This document shows positions 1 through 46,364 of a stretch of 50,000 nucleotides of DNA, one piece after another. The notes under the pieces were generated by a model that saw only the letters and a program-made list of their open reading frames with translations, did no database searches and was not told where the DNA came from. Positions within the stretch are counted from its first letter, which is position 1. Each line of letters begins with the position of its first letter. Origin of the DNA: Acanthamoeba sp. SK_2022b (Eukaryota; Discosea; Longamoebia; Acanthamoebidae); NCBI GenBank assembly GCA_027943245.1, contig JANDJZ010001713.1, forward strand, positions 1 to 50,000, read 5' to 3'. Made by a program: the position numbers and the translations under genes.

Positions 1-240
1 CACTGAGCAGAAGAAGTTCTCCATGCTGGCATCCACCGTCGGGTCGTAGCCGACTCGCATACAAACATCCGCCAACAGACCGTAAGGTCAGCCTCACTCC
101 ACAAAACCCACCGACACGCCACAGCAGTACCCTGGCTGTAATAGGTCGAGTTGAGGGGGACACCCATGTCCGCCGCCAGCCATTCTCTCGTCGTGATCTT
201 TTGCAGGAATGCGATGATCCTTGTGTGGGTGTGGGTGTGT

Positions 241-305
<65 letters not shown>

Positions 306-2040
306 CCATATGATCAAACACATCCGCCAGCGCGCAAGCCCAACAAAAAAAGGAGGACAAGTCAGGCGACATTGCTGCGGTAGATGCGAGTGACTCAAGT
401 TGTCAGACGGCGCCTCTTTGCGCAAAGAGGCTGTACCACTTGCGAGCCTCCTCGAAGAGGCGCTCCTGGGTCCAGTCCGGGTGGGCGGCCTCGAACTCGT
501 CGCACAGACGATTGTGCTCGAGACCGAACACCTCGGTGAGGGCGATGAGATCGGGCGTCTTGTTGGTGCGGAGGTCGCCCCGCATCTTCCAGATGGGTTT
601 GTTTTGCGTCGTCTCGGGAATGAACGTCAGCTCGAGCTGCGCAATCAAAGCGCGTGGGTATCGTATGAGTGACCGATAACTATTGCTTGCGATTGCGTCT
701 TGGATGTACCTCGGCGGGGAGGAACCAGTTGGAGTTGTTGAGCTTGCACGTGTAGCCACCCGCGCCTGTTTGAGTAACATATGCAGCCATGAGGCAAAGC
801 GTGCTAGGGTCTCCCGGTTCCAGAGTCGTACCGTCCTTTGCACGAACGTCGTAGTAGGAGAACTTGGCATGCGGGTCCCAACCAAATGGACTGCAAACAT
901 TCCGAGAAAGAGGGGATGCGCGTGTGGATGAGACTGGGCCCAGGGGAAAAGGGGCGCGTGGCACGTACCCGTAGAGCCAGGAGGCATCGAGCCACCCAGT
1001 GATGTCCATGAACTGGTTACGCGTCGCGTTGGGATCGAAATAGGTCGATGGATGCGGCGCCGACCGAGTCACCGGACACTCGAGCGAGGCGTTGGCCGTG
1101 GGGTTGTAGAACAGATCGTCTGATAAATTACCATCCAACGCCATCAAAAACAACCGGGGCATTTCGGTCAGAACACAACCCTGAGGTGAACCCACAATAC
1201 TGGGACCGTACCCACAGGAATGGGAATGCCAAACTGTTCGAGCTCGTACGAGGCGTTGCCGAGCAAGAACGTGTAGGCATCGCGTAGTTGGATGCCTGTC
1301 AGACCGACAGAGCAAATGCTCAGAACAAGATAGGGGGGGGGGCAAGGTCCATCACGCGTTGATGGGGTACCTCGCACGGTGTTGCAGATGTCTAGCACGG
1401 TGAGCTGGCCCCAAATTGTTTGCAGGTCGTTGGTGAGAAGCGGGTTGCTCACTATCGGAGATGAGGTGGGGTGAGCATTTTTCGCTTTTCCTCAACGATG
1501 GCGCGATACCTGGAAGGCGGGCGAAGAGCTCGTTGCTGATCACTCTAGCGCTAGGGCCGTCGCTCCGGAGCGGGGCGCTTCGTTCGTCCGTGTACGCATG
1601 GGGAATCAGCTCTGTGTGTGGCCGTTGTGTGCACAGAGTGATTTAGGCGGAGAGTTCCGATCGTGGGGTTCTCCGGAGGGCAGAAACGTACTGGTGCGGT
1701 AGGGCGCGAAGACAGAGTTGATGCTACCGCTCAGCTCGCTCACGTTCACACCTGGAGCATTAATAAATGGCCACACAACGTTCACCACTCTTAGCGACAC
1801 GCATTGTTATTTATTTGTTTGTTTGTTATTTGTTCTTAGTTATTTGTTTATTCATAATTCACTGTTCTTTGTGGATAAGGAATGGCAAGTACCGGTGGGT
1901 TGACGGATGAGATCGTCTGAAGAGCCATATTGGCCTTGTAGTCCAGGGTCGACCGACTGCACGTCGGCTCGGCAAGCAGAAAGAAGAGCACCGATGAATA
2001 TGATGCAAAGCAGTGGTCCTCCTCTTAAGGGAACCTGCAT
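1..2040 (-). CDS. Peroxidase-ectodomain receptor kinase, copy A (5' part; runs off the left edge)
   Basis: Minus-strand paralogue of the gene at 3090-9901; only its leader and the first part of its peroxidase domain are in the window. The start at 2040 opens a hydrophobic leader (core LLCIIFIGALLSA). Exon 1 is 1893-2040 and exon 2 is 1692-1751, the same 60-nt length as exon 2 of copy B. Later exons encode a block ending ISNELFARLP (about 1509-1560), the distal-heme block WGQLTVLDICNT (about 1374-1443), DITGWLDASWLYG (about 970-1010) and GLEHNRLCDEFEAAHPDW (about 450-510). The intron at about 96-437 carries a GT microsatellite. As in copy B, the Asp and His of the canonical WGQ..DHD motif are Val and Leu. 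The proximal His region, DOMON, membrane helix and kinase would lie left of base 1, so their presence in this copy is inferred from the paralogues. Exon borders before 1690 are certain; the others are good to a few bases. Confidence 0.85.
243..304. repeat. GT dinucleotide microsatellite in an intron of copy A
   Basis: Nearly pure GT run inside the intron after the exon ending in the RKW codon. Read on the gene's strand it is a CA run and is the positional equivalent of the CA run at 4999-5092 in copy B, with the same flanking bases (GATCATATGGAAC upstream, AAGGATCATCGC at the next exon). Confidence 0.95.
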
Positions 2041-3089: not shown

Positions 3090-4997
3090 ATGGGAAGTCG
3101 CTTCGTTCTTTGGTCGCACGTGGTAGTCTTCGTTCTTTTCGCTCTGGCTCGCCTGAGCGACGCCGCCGACCCTGGACTTGGGGGTGAGTACGGAAGCTCC
3201 TCAACTCTTACCCGCCAAGCGAACGGTGCGCTCCCCTCTTCCTCTTTCGTGTAGGAGGAACTCCTTTCCCTTTCTGTGCACACTTAAAAAATGGATAATA
3301 TTTGCGGAGATGATATGTTTACATTCTTGAAATAATTATTCTATTAAATCTGGTCGCTGAGGTTTCCCCTTTTGCGTTTTAGTCGGGTCCGCCCGCCAGA
3401 AAGGTGATCGTTCACTCACGCGTTCGCTTTCTTCTTTCCTCTATGCATGGCCTCCCTCCACCCAGGAACCGACAACAACTTGAGCAACCCCACGATGGGA
3501 GCGGCGTTCTCGATCTTCACCCACCGTACGGCTTCCCCCGAAGTCAAAGATCGGCCCTCTCCGGCGGCGCTCAATAGGCTGACGGTTGCTTCTTTCCGCT
3601 TCCACAGACCTGATCCCGCAAGAGTGGGATGGTCCCAACCACCTCCCGGCCAGGTACAACGGCACCAGCGCGAGGAAAATCAGCAACAAGCTCTTCGCTC
3701 GTCTGCCCGGTACGCGCGTTGTCGCCGCTTCCACTCCCACCGCCCACACGCTGTTGTCGCTCACTCCCCGGCGCCGTATGCAGGAGCCAGTAACCTTCTC
3801 ACCAACGACCTGCAAACCATTTGGGGCCAGCTCACCGTGCTCGACATTTGTAACACCGTGCGAGGTACCCCATCACATCGACACCCACTCCCTGGCCGCC
3901 TGATCTCCACGCATTTGGTATCTCTCTCTCTCCGGCTTCCTGACATACTCGGCGCGCTGGCAGGACTTCAACTGAACGAGTCGTTCCCGTTCCTGCTGCC
4001 GCCCAACACCACCTACGAGAGGGAGAAATACGACATCCCCATCCCCGTGGGTACGGGAGCGCCAACGGCTGCTTCGTCGTTGTCCGCCTGTGGTCAGCCG
4101 GCGTGCTAACGCGGGAAGCCGTGTTCTGCGCGTGGGGGCGACAGACGATCTGTACTATAACCCCAACGCCGACCCGAACCTGGGCTGTCCCCTGGATCGG
4201 TCACCGGGCTTCCCCCACATCGTCGGTCCCCGGTTTCAGTTCCACGACATCACCGGCTGGATAGATGGCTCGTGGCTCTATGGGTACGCACGGCCTTCCT
4301 CTTTTCATTTTTTTCTTTTCTTTTTCTTTTTATTGGGCCACAATAAAAGCAACACCAGCGGCTGGCGACCTGACGTGTCTGGCTCCTCCTGCAGTTCTAC
4401 TGGGTCGAACCCGCACGCCAAGTTCGTCTACGAGGAGATTCGCCAGGGTACGCAGAGTCACCTCCTTCGACTGCTCCCGTCCATGCGTGCGTCTCACCCC
4501 AACGAACTCGATAGATGGGGGCGCTGCGTGCAAGCTCAACAACTCCTACTGGTTCCCGCCCACTGAGGTAGGGCTCCCTCTCTCCTACGTTCAGCTTTAC
4601 CAGCTTTAGCACACGTGACAGTCGTGACTGACCTCCCCCCCCTCTTTGCTTTCCGCAGCTTGGTCTGACGTTCATTCCCGAGACCCTCGACGGCACTCCC
4701 ATCTGGAAGCGGCGGGGCGACCTCCGCACCAACAAGACGCCCGATCTCATCGCCCTCACCGAGGTGTTCGGTCTCGAGCACAATCGTCTGTGCGACGAGT
4801 TCGAGGCCGCCCACCCGGACTGGACCCAGGAGCGACTCTTCGAGGAGGCTCGCAAGTGGTACAGTCTCTTTGCGCAAAGAGGCGCCGTCTGACAACTTGA
4901 GTCACTCGCATCTACCGCAGCAATGTCGCCTGACTTCTTCCTTTTTTGTGGGTATCGGGCTTGCGCTTTGGCGTGGTGGCTGTGTTTGATCATATGG

Positions 4998-5064
<67 letters not shown>

Positions 5065-8000
5065 CCACACACACACACACACATCCACACACAAGGATCA
5101 TCGCATTCCTGCAGAAGATCACGACGAGAGAATGGCTGGCGGCGGACATGGGTGTCCCCCTCAACTCGACCTATTACGGCCAAAGTGCGTGTGCCCTCCT
5201 ACGCTCTCGAGTGTTGGGCTGGACTAACGTTCCCTTGGCTTTTTGCGCGCACAGACGGCTACGACCCGACGGTGGACGCGGGCCTGGAGAACTTCTTCTG
5301 CTCAGTGGCCATGCGCTACGGCCATTCCATGGTGAACTCGCAGGTGTTCCTGGCCGACGACGACTATAAGCAGAGCGCTATTGGCAACATTCTCGTGCGC
5401 GATTGGTATTTGTACGTGAGTCCTGCTCTCCTGCACCCTGCTCGCTGCTTGATTGTGTCGCGCGCTCATGCTGGTGTGTCGCGTGGGCAGCCAAACGAAG
5501 AGGATCGACGATACGCCAGGCATGATCGAGGACCTTCTGCGCGGTCTCACCGTTCAGAGGCAAGGCATGGTCGACACTTCGTTCGTCGACGATCTGTACG
5601 TGGAACACTTCTCCCCCGCTCTTCGTGTTGCTCTCTCTCACACCACCCGCGTCCGTGCACAGGCGAAACTACATGTTCTCCACCCCCACCTGGAACCAGT
5701 TCACCAACCCTGGCCATGAAGTCATTTGCGGCGACCTGCCCGCCACCAACATCCAGCGCGCTCGGTAAGCCAGCTGCCGCCAGTTCAATGTTTTATTTTA
5801 TTTTATTCTTTGTTGCAGGCGTCTCACGTGATGATGTGTCCACACCACAACCGCCATACAGCGACCACGGCATGCCGCACTACAACAGGGCGCGTGAGCT
5901 ACTGGGCCTGCCGCAGATCAGCAGCTGGGCCGATCTCACCCCCGATACTGATATTCAGGCACGTGCCCTTGCCGACCTCTCGTGTGACGTGGGACAGGCC
6001 ATCCTCATCGAGCGCTTCCCGTGTGCCCCCTTTACCTACGGCAGGCTCTTCTCGAGGAGCTCTACCCCGACGGCGTGAACTCCCTGGACCCCTATGTCGG
6101 AGGACTGCTGGAGAGCCACGTGATCGGAGCCAGCGTCGGTCAGCTGTTCCACACGGTCATCATGGACCAGGTGCCTCACGCCACATGCCGTCATCTCTGT
6201 AGGTCTTGTGTGCGACCCACGCACAGCGGCGACTCACTCCCGGCTGGCGTATGCAGTTCGAGCGGCTGCGCAACGGCGATCGGTTCTGGTATGAGCGCAA
6301 GGGCATGTTCTCCGATGCCGAGCTCGCCCTCATCCACAACACCGTACGTTTCCACGCTTCATACTTCTCTCTTACTCTCTCTCTCTCTCTCTTGTTAAGC
6401 GTTGCGTTTCTTGCTGACCGCTATGCATGGTTACCAACTATCAGACCATCATGGACATCATCGCGCGAAACATGAACGTGACCAAGTGGGGCTCCACTCC
6501 CGGTGAGACGTTCTTCCTCCAGCAGCGCTACCTCGCCAACATCGGTTCGTTGCCACCGTCTCCTCTACCAAGATATGATCACCTGATCAACGACGATGGC
6601 GGGTGGTGATGGGTGGTCGGTGGGGGGGGGAGACAGGCGGAGACCAGTTCTTCGAGAACACGGGCGAGTACGACAACTACGTCGACCTCTCGCCGGCCTA
6701 TCGCCTGTCGTGGACCCCCGACAAGTCCAACAACGCCATCCGCATGATGATCCAGGTCTCGCTCTTGCGCCCCTTCATTAAAATATAATATTATATCATA
6801 TTATATTATTATGATGATGATGCTTATTATTATTATTATTTGTTGGAGAGTTGGTGGCTGACTGGGTGGAAACGTACGGACATGTGTACGCCACCAAACA
6901 TGCAGTGCCGGAACAGCGGATGGGTGGGAGTGGGGTTCCACGCCGACGAGGCGACGATGAAGAACGCCGACATCCACATCTGCCGGCGGTGGAGCAACGA
7001 GACGTGGGAGTTCATCGACGCATACGCGCTCGACGTGGGTCCGCCGACGCGCGACCAGACGCTGGCAGGCGGGAGCAACAACCTGTTCGACACGTCGGCC
7101 AAGTACGAGAACGGCGTCGTCACCTGCAAGTTCTCCAAGTACACCTCCTCCTCCTCCTCCTCCTCCAATTGGGCATTCGTGGAGCGTGCCAGGAACACTC
7201 ACCACCACCACCACCACCACCACCACCACCACCACCACCACCACCACCACCACCACTACCACTACCACCACCACCACCACCACCACGACGGCCGACAGGC
7301 GAATCTCGACGTCAGATCCGTGGGACAAGACGATCACAGAGGGACTCAACAAGGTGATCTTCGCGTTCAACCCGACGGAGAACGAGCTGGTCTACCACGG
7401 GCCCACGCGCTCGTCGGCGGCGCGGCTCAACCTGCTCAACTCGTGCATAGGGTCGGGCTGCTCGTCGGACGACACGGCGGCGATCGTGGGTGGAGTGGTG
7501 GGCGGAGTGGGCGGAGCGCTGCTGCTGTGCCTGATCGCACTGGTGGCGGTGGCGATCGTGCTGCTGGCGGTGGCGCGGCGGAAGAAGAAGGAGGCTGAGC
7601 TGCTGCTGGCCGAGGAGTGGTCGGACGACGAGGCATCGATCGAGATGGACGACATGTCCGAGTCCTCCGCCTCGTCCAGCTCGTCCGTGCGCACTTCTGC
7701 GCTGCTGGGCAAGCAGCTGTCGCTGATGGACCTGGAGTCGGTGAACATCAGCTTCGAACCCAAGGTCTTGACGTTCGGGCTGGGGTCGAACGACAAGTGC
7801 CCGGTGGACGAGGAGGTGAGCGATGAGATCGTGCTCACCAACCACGGGCCGGCGCGGCGGTTCACGTTCTTCGTGCCGACGGAGAACGAGAAGTTCGCGT
7901 GCCGGCTGCATCCGGGCTCGGGCGTGATCAAGTCGGGCAAGAGCGTGACGGTGCACGTGCACGTGACCCTGCTCATGACGACCAACATCGAGCGCAAGAT

Positions 8001-9901
8001 CAAGTTCGACGTGGAGGGCCTCGGGTCGCATCTGATCACAATCAAGCTCGTGGGCGAGCTGTCGACCAAGCTCGATCCCGACGACATCATCACCACCAAC
8101 CCGCCCATCGGTGCTCCCCTCGCCCATCTAATCTCTCTCCCCATCACTGCTCACACACAGCGCGCCTCTCCCCCCTCTCTCTAACAACCACGAATGAAAT
8201 GGAACGGAACGGAACGGAACGAACAGGGCAGGGATCGTTCGGAACGGTGTACAAGGCCAACTATCGGGGACAGGAGGTGGCGGCCAAGGTGCTCAACTCG
8301 CAGATGGACAGGCGCCAGCTGGCCGAGTTCCAAAAGTTCGTTTCCTTCTTCGCTCACCCCCACCCTGCCAACCAAAACCAACGAATGGAAATGAATGTGG
8401 TGGTGGTTTGGGGGGGGGGCGAGCAGGGAGGTGGACATCATGACTCGGCTGAGGTGTCCATACGTGCTCAACTTCGTGGGCGCATCGTTCGTGCCCGGCA
8501 AGACCTGCCTCGTCACCGAGATTTGCACCCAGGGTTCCGTGTCCGACGTCGTGTTCTCCGACAAAAACTTCAACTACTTGCTGATGCTGAAGGTGGCGCT
8601 GGACATGGCCAAGGGCATCTCCTTCCTCCACACGTACACCTCCTTCTCGCCCTTTCATTGGTGGTGGTGGTGGTGGTGGTGGTGGTGGTGGTGGTGGTGG
8701 TGGTGGTGGTGGTGGTGGTGGTGGTGGTGGTGGTGGGTGGATCCACCGACGACTATGCTGACGATTAATAACCAATATAAACAACCATCAACCAACCACC
8801 AACAGGAACGGAGTGCTGCACAGGGACATCAAGCCGGACAACTTCCTCATCATCTCGCTGTCGGCCAAGGCGCCCGTCTCGTGCAAGATCGCTGACTTTG
8901 GCACCTCCAGGTCCCCCCCCCTCCTCCCCTTTCCTCCTCTCTCCCCCCCCCCCCCCGGTGACGGCCTCCGTTGTTTGTCAACTGTGTTGCCTGTCTTGAC
9001 CAAACTATGCAAACAACACAAATGCGGCGCAAACTACGTGCAGGTCGATCACGCAGGCGCAGGAGGCGTTCAACCACACGGCAGCGCTGGGCACGCCGAT
9101 CTACATGGCGCCAGAGATCCTCGAGCACAAGCCCTACTCGGCCAAGATCGACGTGTACTCGTTCGGCATCATGCTGTGGGTGCTCTACACGCGGAGGGAG
9201 CCTTACACGGAGCTCAAGCGCCAGTGGGACATTCCCAAGTACGTGATCAAGGGCAACCGTCCGGCCGTGCCCGACCACTGCCCCGACGCCTTCAGCGGCC
9301 TCATCAGCCAATGCTGGGCCCACGATCCCGAGGACAGGTACACCCACCACACCACACCGCACCACACCACACCACACCACACCACACCACACCACACCAC
9401 ACCACACCACACCACACCACACCACACAACACCACACAACACAACACCGCATATTTCATCATCGATGCGCAGGCCGTGCCTCCTGACAAAGCTGCGGTCG
9501 CATGCACCTGCTCGCACCATAGGTTGACGATGGCCGAGGTGGTGAACGTGCTGGAGAAGCTGTTCGAGGAGGAGAAGGCGCTCAAGGGCCAGCGCGACGA
9601 CGCCGACCGCGGCGGCAAGCGCGCCAAGCCCTCCGACCGCGCGCAAACCGCCCGCGGGTTCGAGGAAGAGGAGGAACAGGAGAGGCTCGGCGCACGAACC
9701 TGGGAGGGCGGCAGGAAGGGCCTCGTTGAGGACGATGGGGCCGAACAGGCCAAAAAGGTACCTGATGCATCCCACGCCCCACACCCTCGCTCGAGTTACT
9801 TACTTTCTTTTTATCAGATCGACTTCAGCTCCGATTCGGACTCGGATTCGGGCAAGGGCAAGCGCAAGAAGGACAAGCGCAACCTTACCGGGGGCGTCTA
9901 A
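3090..9901 (+). CDS. Receptor kinase with peroxidase-like and DOMON ectodomain, copy B (complete, 26 exons)
   Basis: Probable type I membrane kinase. Manual splicing gives 26 exons (3090-3183, 3466-3525, 3608-3709, 3784-3864, 3964-4050, 4145-4283, 4395-4447, 4515-4567, 4659-4858, 5096-5184, 5255-5405, 5491-5595, 5663-5764, 5862-5958, 6045-6170, 6257-6343, 6445-6544, 6637-6755, 6906-7138, 7299-8110, 8227-8335, 8427-8633, 8806-8910, 9044-9337, 9523-9757, 9818-9901), in frame for about 1307 residues. Order: signal peptide 1-25; heme-peroxidase domain to about 600, with WGQLTVLDICNT (distal Asp and His lost), GDLRTNKTP (catalytic Arg kept), RYGHS (proximal His kept) and NIQRARDHG; DOMON about 600-745 (SGWVGVGF...MKNADIHICRR); membrane helix 754-784 followed by RRKKK; MSP/ASH-like domain about 840-955; TKL-type kinase about 963-1220 with GQGSFGTVYK, AAK, HRDIKPDN, ADFG and MAPE intact; acidic Ser-rich tail. 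Peroxidase activity is unlikely and kinase activity likely. Ligand unknown. Confidence 0.93.
4999..5092. repeat. CA dinucleotide microsatellite in intron 9 of copy B
   Basis: Long CA run interrupted by two ATCC insertions, occupying most of the 3' half of the intron 4859-5095. It ends three bases before the acceptor AG, so the usual pyrimidine tract is replaced by the repeat. Confidence 0.95.
7198..7287. repeat. ACC trinucleotide repeat in intron 19 of copy B
   Basis: About 30 ACC units with two TACC interruptions, preceded by a short TCC run (7144-7166). The repeat lies in intron 7139-7298, which separates the two halves of the DOMON domain. The intron is 160 nt and has no stop in the incoming frame, so retaining it would read through a His-rich run and then shift frame. 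Copy C has no intron at this position. Confidence 0.92.
8660..8737. repeat. TGG trinucleotide repeat in a kinase-domain intron of copy B
   Basis: About 25 TGG units inside intron 8634-8805, between the helix-E segment of the kinase and the catalytic loop. The incoming frame is open across it (poly-Trp), but the 172-nt intron would shift the frame if retained. Confidence 0.92.
9338..9445. repeat. CACAC-type pentanucleotide repeat in a late kinase intron of copy B
   Basis: Tandem ACACC/ACACCACC units begin immediately at the donor site of intron 9338-9522 and fill its first 100 bases. The intron separates the exon ending CWAHDPEDR from the exon starting LTMAEVV. Confidence 0.9.
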
Positions 9902-16664: not shown

Positions 16665-19600
16665 ATGGTTACTTGTTGTCTGAGAAGGATGTATCTTACC
16701 CAAACTAAAGGCCTCCTCTATTTTTTCATCTTCGCGGTGGTCACCTCCGGTGCCCGACAAGGTACAGTCGCTGCTCGGTCAGACTTGATCACTTGGTCAA
16801 CGGGCTCGGCAGTAACCGCCTCCGTAGTCCACCAACGGGTGCTCTGGACAGATTGCTTACTTTTGTGAGGGATGGTTATGGACTTGACTCGGATGCAGTG
16901 TGGGGACAAGAACACGGAGGTGCTCCTCTTGGTTGTGTTTATGGGACCTCTCCCGAGTGCACGCGGAGCATCAGCGGCCACGGCAATAACCTGCTTCACC
17001 CTGAGTGGGGTGCCTCCTACAGGCCCTATACACGCTGTACTGCCCCCTCTCTTCGGACTTTGTAGCAACCGTCTACTGCCCCGGTTGCATCCGATCACTT
17101 ATTAACCGAGTGCCCCACAGTGGACTTGCCCGCAGCCTATGATGATGGATGGAGCCAGCCCGCAAGGTATGTCCGCACCGCTCTGGGCTGGGTTCCCGCA
17201 TCCTCTCATCTTCTCGCTGCTCCACTGTTGTGATCGCAACAGATCAAATGGAACCAGCGGTCGCATCATCAGCAACAAACTGTTCTCCCGACGCGCGAGT
17301 ACGCTCTAAGTGCGCTCTCGGCGTGCTCAAGCATCTCCAATCTAAGCTTGCCCCCCCCCCAATATCTCCAGAGATCAACACGCGCCAAACAAGCCAATTG
17401 CAGACCAACTTCGGCCAGGTGCTCGTGACAGATCTCTGCAATACCATACGAGGTACCTCGCCTGGCGCTTAGATCCCCAATGGTCCGATACCAACGTCGA
17501 TACCCTCTCCCCTGATCTCTTTGCAGGTGAAGCAGCGCAGTATATCCCAGCCACCCAACCCTATCCTGCAGCCATCGAGAACCTGGACATTCCAGTGCCC
17601 AAGGGAGATCTCTTCTACGATCCGACCCTGTCTGGAACTGAGGTGTGCTACTGCCGCCGATCGTATCCCTTCGAGGGCAACACCGCCCCCAATGTACGTG
17701 CAACTCCCACTTCACCTTCGTTGCGCTGATGAACTGACCTGAGTGTTGGCTGGTTGGATTTACGTGATTCAAGGTCCTAAGGGAGCAGATGCATGATACC
17801 ACGTCGTTCATCGATGCCTCGTTCCTTTACGGGTTGGTTCATCATATCTCCCTCCTCTCCTTTGGATTTAGTATTAATTGGCGCACGTGACAGGCCTACG
17901 GACAACCTCACACTATGGTTCCCCATGCGCGAGATGACCAGCAGCGGCCCACGCTGCGAGATCAATAATGAATTCTGGCTTAACTTTACTGAAGTGGTAC
18001 GCGCAGCGTTGGCCTCGTGTGCAACCGCTCAGGCGTATGATTTATTGACTTGGTTGCTGGTTTCAGTTTTTCTTCAAGGTCAACCCCAACGTGGATATCA
18101 TGAAAATACGCGGAGACCAGCGGACCAACAAGACACCTTACATGGTGGCACTCACCGACGTACGTACGAACGGTTGACCATTGCTTGCGCTTCCAATGCT
18201 AACGCTACTGCCTACTGACCCTTTGGGTATATCTGCACCAGGTAATGGGGAGGGAGCACAACCGGTTGTGCGTTGAGTTTAGGAGCGCCAATCCGGACTG
18301 GACCGAGGAACAGCTTTTCATTCAGGCGCGCAAGTGGTATGTCCGCCTTACTTAACAGCTCATTGTCTCATAGACACTCAACTGTATCTCTCGGTAGGTT
18401 GGTGGCCTTTTGGCAGAAGATCTCTACCAGAGAGTGGCTGGCTGCTGAACTAGGGACATACCTGTCGCCCTACCAAGGTTCATACCCAACTTTTATTACT
18501 GGTGAGCAACAGGTGCCTGACGTGATGGTCACTATAAATTGGTCCGTGGGCAGGCTACAATCCCGACGTGGACCCGTCCGTCGACAACTTTTTTTGTGCT
18601 GCAGCCCTGCGGTACGGCCACTCCGAGGCCAACAGCGTCATCTCGCTGCTGGATGAGCAGTTCCACGAAACTGGCTTCGGCAACCTGCTGTTGCGCGAAG
18701 TGTTCTAGTACGGGCCCTTCTACTTTTCACTTTCCCCCTTCTCTGGCGCTCTTATGACGTTTCTCTTTTCTGAACAAACAGCGACCCAGCTCTTACCGAG
18801 ACCAACCAGCTGCACGACTATGTTATTCGTGGCTCTCTCGTGCAACCGCAGGGCGCTGTCGATGAGTCGTTCGTCTCCGACGTGTATGTAACCCGCTTAT
18901 CGACTATATACAGGGGTGTACAGAACCTTACTTTAGCCACAGGCGCAACTTCATGTTCAACACGCCCATCTACAACCAGAACCAGTGGCCGGTCGGGATC
19001 TGTGGTGATCTGGCTGCAACAAACATCCAACGAGGCCGCGACCATGGCTTGCCCAGCTACCCCACCTGCCTCAGAGTGCGTCGCCATCTCCTCCATTGAA
19101 ATAACTCCGTGCAGACCAGTGTCTCAGGCTAGTTGTCTTATTTTATTTGTTTGATGCGCTAGGCGCTCAACCTCACGAGCACTCCTCCAGCCACCTTTGC
19201 TGAGTTCACCAGTGATGCTGAGATAAGGGCACGTTGGCTGTAGTCCAAGTGCAGAGCGCCTTGTTGAAATCTCATTCTTGTCCTTTCCCCCCTTCGCTAG
19301 GGTCTGCTCGAGGATCTCTACCCCGATGGCATCGATTCGCTTGATGCTTATGTGGCCGGGCTTCTGGAGGGTGAGCTCTGCTTACTCGCCCGTGGGCATT
19401 CTTTTCCAGTGTAGTGTGCTTGCTTATCATCATTTCCTGTTCTGCAGAGAAAGTCTCCTACTCAAACCTTGGCCCGCTGTTCCAGACCTCAATCATTCGT
19501 CAGGTACCGGACCGAGTCAGTTCGGTTGGCGGTGTTCTTTGGCGTTGGCTAACGCTCTGAGTATCAGCTGGAACGTATGCGCGATGGCGACCGTTTCTGG

Positions 19601-22600
19601 TATGAGCGACCGGGAATGTTCACTCCCGACGAGCTTGCCCTCATCTACAACACGGTACGCTCGCTCATATCGCGGATGGCTCCTATTGTATCTCACTGCG
19701 AATGACCGTCTCCTGCCTTTCTTTGACGGCAGACACTGATGGACATCATTGCTCGCAACACCGGAGTCAAGCCTTGGGCCACCTTTGCCGGAGAGACCTT
19801 CTGGCTGCAGTCTCGCTATCTCTCGCAAGTCGGTACGTGCCAGGCTACCTCATGCACCGTAGTGTGGTGGATCTGTGGTCTCAAACATACGTCGTTATCA
19901 GGGGCTGGCGATCAGTTCTTCCCATACGCGGGAGAGTATGCCCATTTCATGGATCTCTCACCTGCCTACCGATTCTCCTGGACCGTTGAACGCAGCAGCA
20001 ACCAACTTCACATCATGCTTCAGGTTCCTGTCCATTAAGCAAACGCTTGCCGCTTCGCTTCCGAGGTTCTCATTAATTGTCTATTAGTGCCGCAACTCGG
20101 GTTGGGTAGGCATCGGGTTTAAGGCTGATCCCAACACCATGAAGAACGCTGACATCCACATGTGCCGTCGGTACAGCTGTCTCCTCTCCTCCAGAAGCGC
20201 TTTTGCTGATGGTGGCTAAAAAATGTTTCAGGCTGGAAAATGGGACATACATAGTCACCGACATGTTCGCTCTCGATGTGGGTCCGCCTAAGAGGTAAGC
20301 ACACTCACGCACGCCATGACGGAGGTGAGAGCCGAATTGACTGATCCCATCCCCTGCACTGCAGTGATGTCGAACTGGGTGGCAAACAAGATGTGTTCGG
20401 CATATCGAGCGAGCACGTGGATGGCGTAACGACCTGCCGCTTCACTCGGCGCCTTGAGACTACAGATCGCTATGATCACTCGATCGATCCCGGGCTGACA
20501 AAGGTTTCTGCCTTGGCCTACGAGAGCGCTCAACGAGCTCAACTTGAATCTGATACGGTCTATCTCCGCAACGTTGTCGCACAGGTGATCTTTGCGTTCA
20601 ATCCGTCAGAGAACGACCTCGTCTACCACGGTCCCACGCGCTCGTCGCTTTTCCGGATCAACATCCTTGGAGCTGGTACCTTCCCGACACCGTGTTATTG
20701 TCTCCCGCCTCGCGCTCACCTCTGGCCAATCGGCTTGCAGATTGCAAGAGCGGAATGTACACTGCGCAGGGCGACTGCGTTTCGGATGACTCGCAGACAG
20801 GTACCCTCTCCCCACAGCACCCTCGATTTCAAAGTCACTTATCGCTCTGCCCCTGCGGGTGCTAGGCGCCATTGTGGCTGGAGTTGTAGGCGGGGTGGGC
20901 GGCCTGCTGTTGTTGATGCTCATGTGCGTCATCCTGCTTGCCGCGGTCCTCTTCTACCTGGCCAAGCGAAAGAAGAAGGAGCAGCAGCTCCTCCTCGCAC
21001 AGCAGTGGTCGGAGGACGACATGGACGAATCGACGGAGATGAGCGACATGTCTTCCTCCTCTTCGTCGTCCTACGCCAGCTCGTAGGTTTCCCTCACTTT
21101 ATGAATACGCGTGGGGAGTTCATCTAACTTACAAATCTACTGCATCTCGGCAGGAGGATGTCGCGAGAGGTGTCGTTGAACGAGTTGGAGACGGCCCATA
21201 TCTCGTTCACGCCCAAGGTGCTCACCTTCGGGCTCGGACCGAACGACCGATCGCCGGTAGATCAAGAGCTGCACGACATTCTCACCCTCACCAACTACGG
21301 TACGCATTTCTCGTGGCTGTTCCTTTCCACATACTCTCTCACGCTCATTGCCGTCGGCATCTGCAGGTCCTGCACGAAAGTTCACGTTCTTCGTGCCGGC
21401 AGAAAATGAGAAGTTTAGTTGCCGCCTCCATCCGGGCGCTGGCATCATCAAAACGGTTCCGCTCCTCTCCTCTCCTCTTGGCTCCGCTCGGCAGTAGTGG
21501 CTTATTCGCGACTCTCTCTTTAAATCAGGGCAAGAGCGTGCTGGTGCACGTCTATGTGACTCTCCACATGACAACCAACATCGAGCGCAAAATCAAATTC
21601 GAAGTAGAGGGCCTCGGCATGCATCTGTTCACCATCAAGCTCGTGGGTGAGCTCTCGCACAAGCTCGATCCTGAAGACATCATCACCAAGCCTCCCGCCA
21701 TCGGTATTCTCGCGTTTCGGATCCTCAATGTCCGCCCGTCCGCTGAAGTTGCTTCTGCAGGTCGAGGCTCGTTCGGCACGGTGTACAGGGCCACCTATAG
21801 AGGGCAGGAGGTGGCTGCTAAGATCATCAACTCCCAGGAGGACCCTCGAGAGATCGAGGAGTTCCAAAGGCAATATTTACATTTCCCGCGCGGTCATGAG
21901 CTCTCCCTCTTCATTCTGACGATGTGCGTTGCTTGCCCCCCTTCTAAATGATACAGGGAAGTGGACTTGATGATGCGCCTGCGTTGCCCGTACGTTCTGC
22001 ACTTTATAGGCGCGTCGGTCGTCCCCTCCAAGGCCTGCCTGGTCACCGAGCTGTGCGTGAACGGTACCGCTGACACAGCAGCAGCCAAAGCCCCGACGCA
22101 GCGCCGGGTGTGTTGATTGCTGATTGGCTCCCCCGCGACAGGCAGCGTCGGGGACCTCGTACTATCCGACCGCCCGTTCAACTACTTGGTGATGCTCAAG
22201 TTTTCTGTGGACATGGCCAAAGCGCTCAGCTTCCTTCACACGTGCGTGCCCCTCCGCCAGTCAACCAAACACTACCCAATCGTGCAAGCTCAAGTCCTCA
22301 ACCGCTCTTGCCAACGGCTGTGTGGCAATAGGAACGGAGTGCTGCACAGGGACGTCAAGCCGGACAACTTCCTGGTCATCTCTCTCTCCTCAAAGGCGCC
22401 CGTCTCGTGCAAGATCGCCGACTTTGGCACCTCGAGGTAAGGCATGCACGAGAAGGCAACTCGAAGCGCAGTCTTACTTGGGCACAAACGCAGGTCGATC
22501 ACGCAGGCGCAGCAGCCCTACAATCACACGGCGGCGCTGGGCACGCCCGTCTATATGGCGCCAGAGATCCTTGAGCGGACGCCCTACTCGGCCAAGGTTG

Positions 22601-23307
22601 ACGTGTACTCGTTTGGCATCATGCTGTGGGTGCTCTACACGCGTAGGGAGCCCTACACGGAAATTGATCGCGTGTGGGACATCCCGCCCTTTGTCCTCAA
22701 GGGCGGTCGCCCCGCCGTCCCCGGGCACTGCCCTCGCGTACGTTCACCACTATCTTACTTCACGGTAGCCGCTGCGGTCTCGCTCACGTGTGCGTCGCAG
22801 GCGTTCGGTGAGCTCATGACTAAGTGCTGGGCCCACAGACCTGATGAGAGGCCGGACATGGCAGAGGTCGCCGACACGCTCGAGGCTCTCTTCGAGGCTG
22901 AACGCAGCTTGAAGGGTGCGCACACGGCAAAGCAGAACAAACAACGAGGCCGCGCGGCCACGCGACTCGGCGCTGTACAGACAGCACGCCCCTACGATGA
23001 AGACGTCGACGGCGCTGACGACCAACAAGTGGATGGCAGCGACGACGAGTATGAAGGCGAGTCAACGAGCGAAAAAGAAGAAGGCGCCAGGGAGGGCGTG
23101 AAGAAGAGCGGGAACAACGGGTCGCCTCAGGAGAAGAAGAGCTACACGTGGGCCGCCAGCCGACAGGACGTCCGCGAGCACTATCTCGGCCAAGACTATG
23201 ACGATGCTACGGTGGTCGTAGACGAAGTGGGTCGCAGCCAGAAAGGGAAGACCAAGGGCAAGGGCAAAGAGCCCGCTGCATCCGCCTATACCAAGTTCGA
23301 CAGCTAA
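16665..23307 (+). CDS. Receptor kinase with peroxidase-like and DOMON ectodomain, copy C (complete)
   Basis: Third family member, same strand as copy B but much diverged. The leader contains LLYFFIFAVVTSG; start at 16665, or the internal Met at 16689. Peroxidase blocks follow: HGNNLLHPEWGA (16977-17012), FGQVLVTDLCNT (17413-17448; distal Asp and His are Val and Thr), FIDASFLYG, GDQRTNKTP (catalytic Arg kept), REHNRLCVEF, RYGHSEANS (proximal His kept, about 18610) and ATNIQRGRDHG. DOMON (SGWVGIGF...MKNADIHMCRR) starts near 20095. The membrane helix is around 20868-20965, followed by KRKKK, then the MSP/ASH-like domain (about 21190-21700) and an intact TKL-type kinase (GRGSFGTVYR at 21763, AAK, HRDVKPDN, ADFG, MAPE). 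The tail is acidic and Ser-rich. It has six introns between DOMON and the end of the MSP-like domain that copy B lacks. The leader-to-peroxidase junction (16760-16960) is the least certain part. Confidence 0.9.
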
Positions 23308-42581: not shown

Positions 42582-44188
42582 ATGGAGAAGATGTCCCGGG
42601 CAGTGAGATTCCCGCTGCTGCTGCCGGAAGGGGAAGGCCAGTACCACTATGAGGTGGAGAACTTGACTCATTGCTACAGCAATGCGGAGGATCTCCAGTA
42701 TTGGGTGGACCACTTTCTCCGCCAATTGCCCTCAGTCACGCGCTACGCCCTCGACGCCAACCGCTTTCTCCTCACTACCGGCGGCGGCGTGGCCGCGCTG
42801 CTGGAGGACGCCGCCCAACAAGCTTCTGCTCGGTTTGAGCAAGAGTGGGCACGATGGTCGGCTGCACTTCCGGTTCGTGTTGCCCCTCAAAATAATAAAT
42901 CAAATTATTGTTCGAAATATTTTAATCTGCAGTGTTTTATTTCTACGCGATTAGCTTATCGTAGATTGGTTGCTTGACTAATGTTAATGTTTTTAAAAAT
43001 GGATCCACTTTATAATATAGGGCCCTGTGTCGGTGTGGGAGTTATGCGTGAAACGAGAGCTACTGCTGCGCGAGGTTGGATTCACCGACGCGTACGCTCA
43101 CGTCAAGTACAAGGAGAACAAAGCAGCTCTACGCCTTCTGCCTGCTCTTCTGAGGGTACGAATGCCTCCATCCGTCATCCTCAGCAGCTTATACTTATCC
43201 AACAGGAATTGGATGCCATGGCCGACTTCGATCGGCTGCGGACATTGTTTGAAGGCGTGTTTGCGGGCAATATATTCGATCTCGTACCTGTCTCTCATTT
43301 CTTTTTTCCCTCGTCCCTTCTCTCTTTTGCTCACACCGGGTGGCTGCAGGGCTCGATTGACACCCGGGAACTGTTCGAGCAAGTATGTATCACATTTGTC
43401 CCGTCCAATGGGGTGATGAGGATGCTGCCTCTCTCTTTCTCTGATCCACGTGAATCAGGGGGACGGCGGAGGTGCCGCAGACTTTCTGAGTTGCCGAGCA
43501 AAACTGCCACCCAGGCCGTGGTTTACGGATGACTTGACGGCGATCCAGCAGCGCTTCTCCGACAAGTCAAGAGGGGCCTATCAGAAAGCCATCCTTTTTG
43601 TTGGTATACTGCCTTGGTCTCCTCGTTACCTCAAACTTTTGCTCACTTATAACGCATTTACCAGATAATGCGGGAACGGATATTGTGTTGGGAATGGTGC
43701 CCCTCGCAAGAGAGTTGCTGCGGCGTGGGACCAAGGTGGTGCTGAGCGCCAACTCAACTCCTGCACTCAATGATATCACGCACTCAGAACTGGTATTTTT
43801 TAGTTTTGTTGATGACGAACACCAAACCCGAGACCTCATTTTGCTTTTCGTTGATATGATCCAGGTTTGTCTCATGCAGCAGGCAGCACTAATCGACCGC
43901 GAGCTTAGTGACGCCCTTAGTGACAATCGGCTAAAGTTGATCGCCAGTGGGAACGGATGTCCGCTGATCGATCTGAGCCAGGTCAGTGTTGAGCTTGCGG
44001 AAGAAGCCGAGAGTGCAGACCTGGTAATCCTCGAGGGCATGGGTCGTGCACTCCAGTCCAATCACAGCGCGCGGTTCACATGCGATGCGATGAAACTGGC
44101 CATGGTCAAGGACGCTCACGTTGCCAAGAAGCTCGGCTGCCCACTCATGGCGTGCTTCTGTCGATTCGAAGAGAGAAACAGCCCATAG
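42582..44188 (+). CDS. DUF89-family metal-dependent phosphatase (PANK4 C-terminal / plant type II-like)
   Basis: Starts at 42582 (MEKMSRAVRFPLLLPEG) or at the second Met. The helical N-terminal half (YALDANRFLL, WELCVKRELLLREVGFTDAY, YKENKAALRLLP) leads into the core [45 protein letters not shown], then LIASGNGCPLIDLSQVS and DLVILEGMGRALQSNHSA. The DN-x-G-x-D metal site and the NSTPALND block are those of DUF89 damage-control phosphatases, particularly the type joined to PANK4 in animals and free-standing in plants. They are thought to remove damaged phosphometabolites, such as oxidised phosphopantetheine. Here the domain stands alone without a pantothenate kinase part. The gene lies 151 bp after the RhoGEF and 83 bp before the next gene. 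Confidence 0.87.
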
Positions 44189-44271: not shown

Positions 44272-46364
44272 ATGCACAAGCCTGGCGGGCCATCTTCAGC
44301 GGGGGGACTCCCTTCTCTAGGGCTATGCAGCACGAACACGGGCGGAGGCGGAGGAAGTATTCCTTTACTCTCAGGAGGAGCAAGTGCTGCATCTTCTTCG
44401 GTGCACTATCAAGGCGAAATCAAAGATGGCAAGTATCACGGGAGCGGTACTAAGATTTGGCCAGGTACCTACCATCACTCGCTCTGTTCTAGTAGTTGGT
44501 GCCCTCCTCGTAATAATACTGCCGCAGACGGGGATCGTTATGAGGGTGAGTGGCGTGATGGCAAGCGGAATGGCATTGGCACCTTCACCTGGGCCTCTGG
44601 TGCTCGCTATCATGGTACCAACTGACTCTCTCTTCCCTTACTTCGGAGAGTCGACGTATCACTCACCTGTATGCATGTAGGAGAGTGGAAGGATGACAAG
44701 AGGAACGGCTCAGGGACGTACTTCTGGCTCGATGGCCGCAAGTACGAGGGCAAGTGGCGGAATGGCGACTATCACGGGTGGGGCGTTTACAGCTGGCCTG
44801 ACGGTCGCAGATACGAGGTATGCCCTGACTGCGCTTCCTCTATTTGCTCACTACTGCTAAGAGCGCTCTCTTCTTGGCCGGTGACCTCACAGGGAGAATG
44901 GAAAGAGGACAAGAAAAACGGCAAAGGTGTGTTCATCTGGGCCAACGGTGATCGGTACATGTTGACTACAGCATGCCGTGTATGTGTTAAGTGCGCTGAT
45001 GCCTGTGTTGGGTACAGCTATGAAGGCGAGTGGCGAGATGACAAACCCAACGGTAGAGGCGCCAAGACGTGGGCTAAAGGCGATCGGTACATCATGCTTC
45101 TTCTAGGCCTTTGCCTTCATCGCTCATACGCAATATGTTGCCACAGGTACGAAGGGGAGTGGAAGGACGGAAAGCAATCGGGGCGGGGCATACTGCTCCA
45201 CCCCGATGGACGCAGCGAAGATGGCACGTGGGAAAACGATCTCCCACACGGAGGTACGCGTCATTTGCTCTCAAGCATGTCTGGGACCTCCTTCCCTGGA
45301 TTGAGATTTGTCTGCGCATGGTAGAAATTGTTTACACGGACGAGGAGGGTCATCGGTACGTGCAAAACTACCGATACGGCAAGATACTGTCGACGACGCC
45401 CATGAGTTCCACCAAGTCGCTGGAGCACAATAGCGTACGGGAATTCCGTCAGTTCATAGACAGAGCCAGCGATTGGTGTCGCTCCTTTGGTTTACTCCCT
45501 TCCTCCCTGCTGTTCCCCACACGTATAGTTATCTGATGAATCCAATGCTGTGGATTGGACTTTATGATGCAGAGCTGATGGCGCACGAAGCAACTGAAGC
45601 GAAGCGGCGCATGGAAGAGCTTGCACTTAAGGCGGAGGAGGCGGTCAAGGAGCGGGAGCGGGAAATGCGACAACATGCGCAAGACCATAAGGAATGGCAA
45701 CAAGTCATCCAGGACAAGGCCAGAGAAGCCGAAGAGGCGGACAAGGTCAACCAGGAACTGGCCAGACGAGTTGTTAAACTGAAAGCACGCTGTCAAGGTC
45801 TGGAACAAGAAACCCGGTAGGTTACATCTATCTCCCATGGTTGGGACCAGTGGGACTTGGATCCTGATTGGTGCAAGAGTACAGGAGTCTGCTGGAAGGT
45901 GGACGAGACGACCTGAGCCTGGAAGAGCTCATGTCACTCGAAGTTGCTTTGGAAAGGTGATCCCTCTCTAGATTACCCAACATTCGTGCCGGCTGGAAGG
46001 CTGATTCTGGTGGACGCAGGTCGCGTGCGCTGGTGATGAAAAAGATTGCAACGCTCTCGTTGAAGAAAGAGATAGAGGAAAAGAACAAGTGCTCCGTACG
46101 CAAGAAATATCCTTACTCTTTGAATCGGCACTGTGCCTCATAACACAATGCTGACAGGTATGCATGGAACGCGAGAAGGAGATGGCCTTCATTCCCTGCG
46201 GTCACCGCACTTGCTGCAAAGTACGCTGGTCCCTGCATAGGAGAAGGGTAGTACGCAGGGTTATCTCATCACGTGACTTGCCTCTATAGACATGCAGTGA
46301 TATGCTTGAACTGTGCCCGCTTTGTCGTGAACGTATCGCAAGCAAGCTGGTCATCTACGATTAA
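44272..46364 (+). CDS. MORN-repeat, coiled-coil, RING-finger protein (putative E3 ubiquitin ligase)
   Basis: Begins MHKPGGPSSAGG with a Gly/Ser-rich head. About six MORN units follow (YQGEIKDGKYHGSGT, YEGEWRDGKRNGIGT, GEWKDDKRNGSGTYFW, YEGKWRNGDYHGWGV, GEWKEDKKNGKGV, YEGEWRDDKPNGRGA, YEGEWKDGKQSGRGI), mostly one or two per exon. A long charged coiled coil runs from about 45570 to 45820. A short segment (DDLSLEELMSLEVALERS, about 45907-45960) precedes the C-terminal C3HC4 RING: CSVCMEREKEMAFIP, CGHRTCCKTCSDML, CPLC (46090-46340), with all eight ligands present. MORN units usually bind membranes or partners, and a terminal RING of this type recruits E2 enzymes. The RING is split by two introns. 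Substrate and location are unknown. Confidence 0.9.

Follow-up and report, generated by a model that had tools for sequence, protein, structure and literature searches.

Proteins with the animal heme-peroxidase fold are known as enzymes or, in the dual oxidases (DUOX), as part of an oxidase, and a distal histidine is the acid-base catalyst of this superfamily. Among receptor kinases of amoebae, the Entamoeba EhTMK proteins (families A–F) are described as carrying a signal peptide, an ectodomain and a single helix ahead of a tyrosine-kinase-like (TKL) kinase (PMC2880585), and Acanthamoeba castellanii is reported to have 67 receptor-type nucleotidyl cyclases (PMC4053784). We analysed a 50,000-nucleotide stretch of DNA from Acanthamoeba sp. 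SK_2022b (assembly GCA_027943245.1, contig JANDJZ010001713.1, positions 1 to 50,000 of the forward strand; this whole stretch is called the window below) and in it a gene, here called B, whose predicted product runs from a leader through a peroxidase fold, a DOMON domain, a membrane helix and an ASH domain to a kinase and a tail. On balance we favour, with modest confidence, the idea that this protein is a receptor kinase whose ectodomain, a heme-binding pseudo-peroxidase plus a DOMON domain, would sense an extracellular redox or small-molecule cue.

Gene B lies at positions 3090–9901 of the plus strand, as do all its features given below, and in a dynamic-programming splice model with manual correction it has 26 exons and 1309 codons with 0 internal stops. 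Its introns are of the GT-AG type in 24 of 25 cases; the other, a GC-AG intron that starts after position 5958 (5958/6045), is backed by homology and by an intron at the same place in a second copy in the window (copy C, 19228/19301). The 1309-residue (aa) protein begins with a predicted signal peptide (aa 1–25, 3090–3164), which is seen as a hydropathy peak at residues 5–23 and whose cleavage site was placed without a prediction tool. Then follow an animal heme-peroxidase domain (An_peroxidase, PF03098; aa 32–558, 3183–6486, exons 1–17; 369.3 bits against a cut-off of 25), a DOMON domain (PF03351, 77.2 bits against 32.7; the match covers aa 598–718 and we extended the domain to aa 740 for a conserved YHG strand, 6696–7434, exons 18–20), a single predicted membrane helix with its flanks (aa 753–791, 7471–7587; hydropathy 3.36 over 19 residues) and the residues RRKKK directly behind it, an Ig domain of the ASH/MSP type (aa 845–947, 7747–8055) and a TKL-type kinase (PK_Tyr_Ser-Thr, PF07714; aa 961–1214, 8095–9553; 185.4 bits against 23.1). 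Ten N-glycosylation sequons lie ahead of the helix and 3 behind it. This order of parts had been proposed in an earlier reading of the letters alone (the sequence-only reading) and is borne out by Pfam and hydropathy; that all parts stand in one frame through 26 exons is agreed on by the corrected splice model, Pfam and the paralogues, and the An_peroxidase, DOMON and PK_Tyr_Ser-Thr profiles suggested there as a check all score above their cut-offs.

Such a layout might also arise if two adjoining genes, one for a secreted peroxidase-DOMON protein and one for a kinase, had been merged by over-splicing or misassembly. The splice models used here are themselves predictions, and a second member of the family in A. 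castellanii Neff (P0122) appears in the annotation as no more than a 646-aa "peroxidase". Against a merger of two genes, one exon of B (7299–8110) carries the end of the DOMON domain, the membrane helix and the ASH domain in full, there being no intron between residues 694 and 965, so the helix could be removed by splicing only along with both its neighbours; a helix spliced out, the case that the sequence-only reading had named as telling against it, was considered here, and the helix is found in this uninterrupted exon. The same layout is present in copies C, D and E of the same genome (below) and in other organisms. A. castellanii Neff protein P0001 (1346 aa) has the same Pfam domains, peroxidase, DOMON and kinase, is 81% identical across 97% of the protein, and is deposited at NCBI under the generic name "protein kinase domain containing protein"; visual comparison places its leader region nearer to copy A than to B. 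JGI protein P0121 has the layout in 1332 aa encoded on a 4850-base contig, so that its codons fill most of the contig and, as judged from the protein record, at most about 850 bases are non-coding; JGI protein P0002 has it in 943 aa on a 3672-base contig that cuts the kinase. Stereomyxa protein P0239 (950 aa) starts within the peroxidase domain and is otherwise of the same layout, and its name bears an MMETSP code, which we take to be that of a transcriptome project. The survey of other amoebozoan sequences that the sequence-only reading had called for thus finds the same domain order in A. castellanii Neff and in Stereomyxa. P0122, an apparent orthologue of copy E, is likely a truncated gene model, since on visual inspection its tail resembles the next exon read out of frame. 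Within the range compared, introns of B recur at the same position and in the same phase in D (22 of 23), E (22 of 24), C (16 of 25) and A (8 of 10), and this sharing is not a product of chance. Because of the one-exon span, the layout in paralogues, the shared introns and the same layout in other organisms, gene B is a real single gene and an artefact is very unlikely; we rejected the two-gene explanation and give it next to no credence. As a side observation, the P0001 model lacks the residues NGVLHR ahead of the catalytic Asp, probably through an annotation slip.

We then aligned the peroxidase domains of the receptors with ordinary peroxidases. From 114 candidate peroxidases (P0125–P0238) the 108 shorter than 900 aa served as controls and 6 longer ones were dropped; the receptor rows number 10 and include P0122, which was taken in despite its peroxidase-only annotation because it appears to be the orthologue of E, while P0002 has no distal region and is not counted there and P0239, which lacks the N-terminal part of the domain, stands outside the table. 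Alignment columns carry the names and roles of the myeloperoxidase (MPO) residues to which we take them to correspond (distal His95, proximal His336, and the ester-bond and Ca2+ sites). At the distal His position B has Leu105 (3840–3842), and a distal His is found in none of the 9 readable receptor rows, which have Leu, Thr, Ala or Val, but in 108 of the 108 controls; without P0122 the His is absent from 8 of 8 readable rows. The proximal heme-iron ligand position is retained (His343 in B, 5323–5325), as it is in all 10 receptor rows; all 10 also have the distal Arg, and 8 of the 9 rows that are readable there have the distal Gln. Both residues that form heme esters in MPO are replaced, the Asp in all 9 receptor rows that can be read there (Asp in 107/108 controls) and the Glu in 10 of 10 (Glu in 105/108 controls). 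All 10 rows have the Ca2+-loop Asp, and the Ca2+ Asp on the distal side is present in each of the 9 rows readable at that site. Of 13 further rows outside DUOX, 11 show the distal His; the other 2 are gapped at that position, and one of them is the degenerate first domain of P0124, in which the proximal His is missing too. From the loss of the distal His and both ester residues, with the proximal His and distal Arg kept, the domain looks like a pseudo-enzyme, with a pocket that looks built for heme b without ester links and without an acid-base catalyst. The best solved-structure matches to the peroxidase domain of B are a cyanobacterial peroxidase (8s6c, 231 bits) and Dictyostelium peroxidase A (6erc, 193 bits), followed by myeloperoxidase (153 bits) and DUOX1 (144 bits). 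Separately, 31 loci on viral contigs in IMG/VR (L033–L063) have a relative of the animal-type peroxidase; none of these matches extends past query residue 530, so by that comparison, in which flanking sequence was not examined, none of them shows a DOMON.

The sequence-only reading had called the domain "DUOX-type", a label that found no support: DUOX proteins have no DOMON domain, no Pfam match to EF hands or to an NADPH oxidase core is present in B, and a tree sets the 3 DUOX rows apart from the DOMON-linked peroxidases. We therefore rejected kinship with DUOX on grounds of domain content and tree. In that tree, a quick one in which P0007 and P0012 form long branches, the branch that splits 12 rows (11 with DOMON, plus P0122, which was included although its annotated model ends before the DOMON domain) from the 29 others has a Shimodaira-Hasegawa-like approximate likelihood ratio (SH-aLRT) value of 91, under the starred level; P0005 and P0014, both longer than 900 aa, are absent from the tree alignment.

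For the DOMON domain, heme binding is the stronger prediction. Two of its residues, Met635 (6957–6959) and His728 (7396–7398), are predicted heme b ligands and are unchanged in 8 of 8 aligned DOMON domains, which come from kinase, cyclase, G-protein-coupled receptor (GPCR), unattached (P0007) and fungal proteins. Such a Met/His pair coordinates heme b in the cytochrome domain of cellobiose dehydrogenase (PMC11112829) and is modelled as doing so in CYBDOM proteins (PMC10784544, PMC10691727). The only solved structure matched by a profile of the domain is the DOMON of dopamine beta-hydroxylase (E-value 6.9e-06), for which the authors report no typical heme ligands (PMC4846438) and which, by eye in the profile alignment, has Leu at the position of the family's invariant Met. 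A heme-binding DOMON is predicted because the pair is invariant here, binds heme b elsewhere and lacks its Met in dopamine beta-hydroxylase. Comparison of the single DOMON sequence with solved structures gave nothing useful, and sequence comparison did not lead to the cytochrome domain of cellobiose dehydrogenase or to a direct alignment with a solved heme-binding DOMON.

Both halves of the protein also occur with other partners. Protein searches scored the candidates that shared the most words with the query (7993 and 7997) and listed the best 120, so the following census of outputs is a lower bound. JGI protein P0004 has a peroxidase domain (29–519), a DOMON domain (562–668), a helix at about 738–765 and a guanylate cyclase domain (776–977); in a structure model of it (mean predicted local distance difference test score, pLDDT, 67.7) the peroxidase domain is mostly at 80–98, with some parts at 63–78, the DOMON domain at about 57–93, and the cyclase is poor. 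JGI protein P0123 joins a peroxidase domain (51–615) and a DOMON domain (656–779) to the class C seven-helix domain 7tm_3 (813–1050). The peroxidase-DOMON ectodomain is thus found on at least three outputs: ASH-kinase, guanylate cyclase behind one predicted helix, and the class C seven-helix domain. Conversely, an ab initio model at C896:115052–117486 in the same genome (L030) has the helix-ASH-kinase half behind a phosphate-binding-like ectodomain (PBP_like_2); P0240 has the helix-ASH-kinase half with a Peripla_BP_6/ANF ectodomain; Pelomyxa P0243 and P0241 have it with TIG repeats or a CUB-like stretch just under cut-off; and Entamoeba kinases have the same cytoplasmic half behind Entamoeba ectodomains. 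Since ectodomain and output are swapped on both sides, as in receptors, a sensor role is supported, and this is the main evidence for it. The sequence-only reading had suggested a receptor that reports heme, redox state, hydrogen peroxide or a bacterial ligand to the cytoplasm; its sensing part gains from this module swapping, while the cue that is sensed is still inferred. As a side observation, three JGI proteins (P0252, P0254 and P0246) join a kinase like that of the ASH-kinase half (38–39% identity) to flavodoxin and FAD domains, P0252 and P0254 with an [FeFe]-hydrogenase domain as well (P0252 reads Fer2, Fer4, Fe_hyd_lg_C, flavodoxin, FAD, kinase), and these may possibly be a second redox-coupled kinase family.

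In the fungus Entrophospora, proteins P0012 and P0018 continue the peroxidase-DOMON pair with cytochrome b561, cytochrome b5 and FAD/NAD-binding domains, suggesting that the pair descends from an electron-transfer system. The Entrophospora chain of domains could lead electrons within a single polypeptide from NAD(P)H to a peroxidase fold on the outside, one that has Tyr at the distal His site. Together with the distal Arg and Gln that the receptors keep, the fungal arrangement speaks for the possibility that the receptor ectodomain is catalytically active, as a peroxidase or in electron transfer, and that its product or its turnover is linked to the kinase. However, the distal-residue survey makes an active peroxidase unlikely, the His being replaced in every readable receptor row and present in every control, and no b561 or reductase domain that might supply electrons is matched by Pfam in the receptors; we regard an enzymatic ectodomain as improbable.

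The main rival holds that the ectodomain is a heme-free recognition scaffold for a protein, a sugar or a microbial surface and signals through the kinase much as a heme-free fold persists in DUOX1. The peroxidase homology domain of human DUOX1 is reported from cryo-electron microscopy to be without heme and to lack the heme-ligand His, and to keep its fold and cation sites (PMC7794343); the receptors too have replaced the distal His and both ester residues and kept the Ca2+-site Asp residues. In our alignment the DUOX rows of other animals likewise have no distal His, with Glu in its place (3 of 3), yet keep the proximal His (3 of 3), so that retention of the latter in the receptors is suggestive of heme and not proof of it. 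Some DOMON relatives bind sugars (PMC4846438). The invariant Met/His pair, however, would serve no evident purpose in a sugar-binding domain and argues for heme instead, and the proximal His and distal Arg are retained in every receptor row, whereas human DUOX1 is reported to be without its heme-ligand His; we therefore consider a heme-free scaffold unlikely, though clearly less so than an active enzyme. Besides the behaviour of DUOX, several observations weigh against a heme-based receptor. The leader and the membrane helix of B are predictions from hydropathy, and P0004 has no leader at the hydropathy threshold used. Next to the proximal His, 8 of the 10 receptor rows retain the Asn, which is replaced in the GPCR and cyclase rows (2/10). 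P0007, a peroxidase-DOMON protein with no signalling domain, keeps the distal His and has lost the distal Arg, so that the pattern in the family is not clean. Finally, P0004, P0121, P0123 and P0002 were read as protein records.

Weighing these points, we still prefer a receptor kinase with a heme-binding pseudo-peroxidase and DOMON ectodomain, which could work as follows. Heme b would be held in both the peroxidase pocket and the DOMON domain. In a pocket with Leu, Thr, Ala or Val on the distal side the heme would serve as a ligand-binding or redox-reporting group and not in a turnover enzyme, and the DOMON heme might exchange electrons with the peroxidase heme or with the medium. A change of heme state or ligand would then affect dimerisation or packing on the outer side of the single helix, thereby activating the kinase. 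Candidate cues are hydrogen peroxide, nitric oxide (NO), O2 and a redox-active bacterial product. The non-polar distal heme pockets of Acanthamoeba H-NOX proteins have been discussed as fitting NO signalling (PMC4053784), which may be a useful parallel, if no proof. More tentatively, and with somewhat less confidence than in the receptor itself, we propose that these proteins could form a new class, in which a two-heme extracellular detector made of a pseudo-peroxidase and a cytochrome-type DOMON, derived from an electron-transfer pair of the sort still joined to cytochrome b561 and a reductase in a fungus, is placed on at least three outputs in eukaryotic microbes. In predicted receptors of three kinds of signalling, the outermost part is a fold that lacks its catalytic His and keeps its heme ligand. 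Should heme be bound, these receptors would be a family of extracellular heme-based sensors, which are rare in eukaryotes; if the proposal is true, they would offer molecular candidates for the way in which free-living amoebae detect NO, oxygen, peroxide or redox-active products of bacteria, and would show plainly how the loss of a single catalytic residue can make a sensor out of an enzyme. Public databases already contain two members from A. castellanii, one under an uninformative name and one as a truncated entry, so that a laboratory strain allows testing. The earlier statement that no characterised protein has this layout holds as far as the literature was searched, and database entries exist under generic names: no description of such receptors was found in 5.39 million open full-text papers, a set that covers few subscription journals and no supplementary files, among which that of the A. 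castellanii genome paper possibly mentions them, and the words peroxidase and DOMON are absent from the main text of that paper.

On the cytoplasmic side, the assignment of an MSP/ASH-like Ig fold in the sequence-only reading stood up in structure and fell short in sequence. The HYDIN/CFA65-type Ig profile PF22544 scores 23.7 bits in B, just under its cut-off of 25.5, and 25.0 of 25.5 in P0121; the Ig region folded alone matches HYDIN, CEP192-ASH, OCRL-ASH and VAP-MSP structures and has the PapD-like beta-sandwich. This domain probably serves for docking or as a spacer. The kinase, which by its profile match would be of TKL type, has a complete set of catalytic residues (Lys986, Glu1003, HRD Asp1078, DFG Asp1101 and APE Glu1130), and its best solved chains are an EGFR tandem construct (in two stretches), CTR1 and TAK1, with B-RAF lower down. 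Behind it, at 9617–9709, lies a tail motif (PSDRAQTARGF, an E-rich stretch, then ARTWEGG) that is conserved in the spliced alignments of paralogues D and E.

Gene B is one of several copies. Copy A (1–2040, minus strand), which stands head-to-head with B, is cut by the contig start and has the leader and part of the peroxidase domain only (spliced alignment to B residues 15–337, start codon by eye); copy C (16665–23307, plus strand) has the same layout with uncertain first exons (spliced alignment, start by eye). The recurrence in copy A in part and in copy C, noted in the sequence-only reading, is thus upheld by spliced alignment, which with protein B as the query also yields two copies not noted there, D on contig C907 and E on contig C628. 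These loci are unlinked to the window and have the layout from the peroxidase domain through the tail; leader exons of D and E were looked for and not found. Proportions of nonsynonymous differences (pN) are below those of synonymous differences (pS) in both halves of the receptor: for B against D, pN/pS is 0.37 in the peroxidase domain, 0.17 in DOMON, 0.53 in the helix and juxtamembrane region, 0.15 in ASH and 0.22 in the kinase, and for B against E the values are 0.45, 0.34, 0.60, 0.21 and 0.28 in the same order. The value for B against C (0.75 in the peroxidase domain) is set aside, as the manual model of C behind it contains frame errors with 6 stops. Copies A (window 1–658, minus strand) and B (4636–5307, plus strand) have in common a block of 686 alignment columns with 85% DNA identity, which includes an intron with a GT/CA microsatellite, and the remaining aligned pieces have 67% to 95% identity; the two inverted copies may have undergone gene conversion. 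Elsewhere in the genome, a DOMON match below cut-off on contig C630 lies in an ab initio model (probably several merged genes) that by eye has a DOMON without peroxidase or kinase, and an An_peroxidase match on contig C478 shows weak, scattered likeness to the receptor (score 267.5), with no kinase half in the 9.9 kb fetched. Farther along the window, neighbouring open frames on the plus strand have an ARMT1-like phosphatase domain and MORN repeats (43538–44185 and 44626–45321).

Compared with known systems, B has the order of the Entamoeba transmembrane kinases, a leader, an ectodomain, a single helix and a cytoplasmic kinase, leader and helix being seen by hydropathy. Entamoeba kinases align with B residues 835–1220 with coverage of up to 100% and 33–37% identity, and no peroxidase or DOMON is given for them among the matches listed; EhTMK ectodomains are described as CXXC-rich (PMC2880585), whereas the peroxidase-DOMON ectodomain of B has 11 scattered Cys residues and is not of the CXXC-rich kind. 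DUOX proteins, with EF hands and an NADPH oxidase, neither DOMON nor kinase, and Glu at the distal position, are unlike B. Dictyostelium peroxidase A and the cyanobacterial TDX16 peroxidase have no DOMON or kinase, and in alignments they have His at or beside the distal position. Like B, CYBDOM proteins and the cellobiose dehydrogenase cytochrome domain have a DOMON with a Met/His pair described as serving heme b, but there the domain is coupled to cytochrome b561 or to a flavin dehydrogenase, and in B it stands on a receptor kinase. Amoebal nucleotidyl cyclases and PBP-type receptor kinases share with B the plan of an extracellular domain, one helix and a cytoplasmic kinase or cyclase; the C896 example of the latter carries a PBP-like ectodomain where B carries a peroxidase fold and a DOMON domain.

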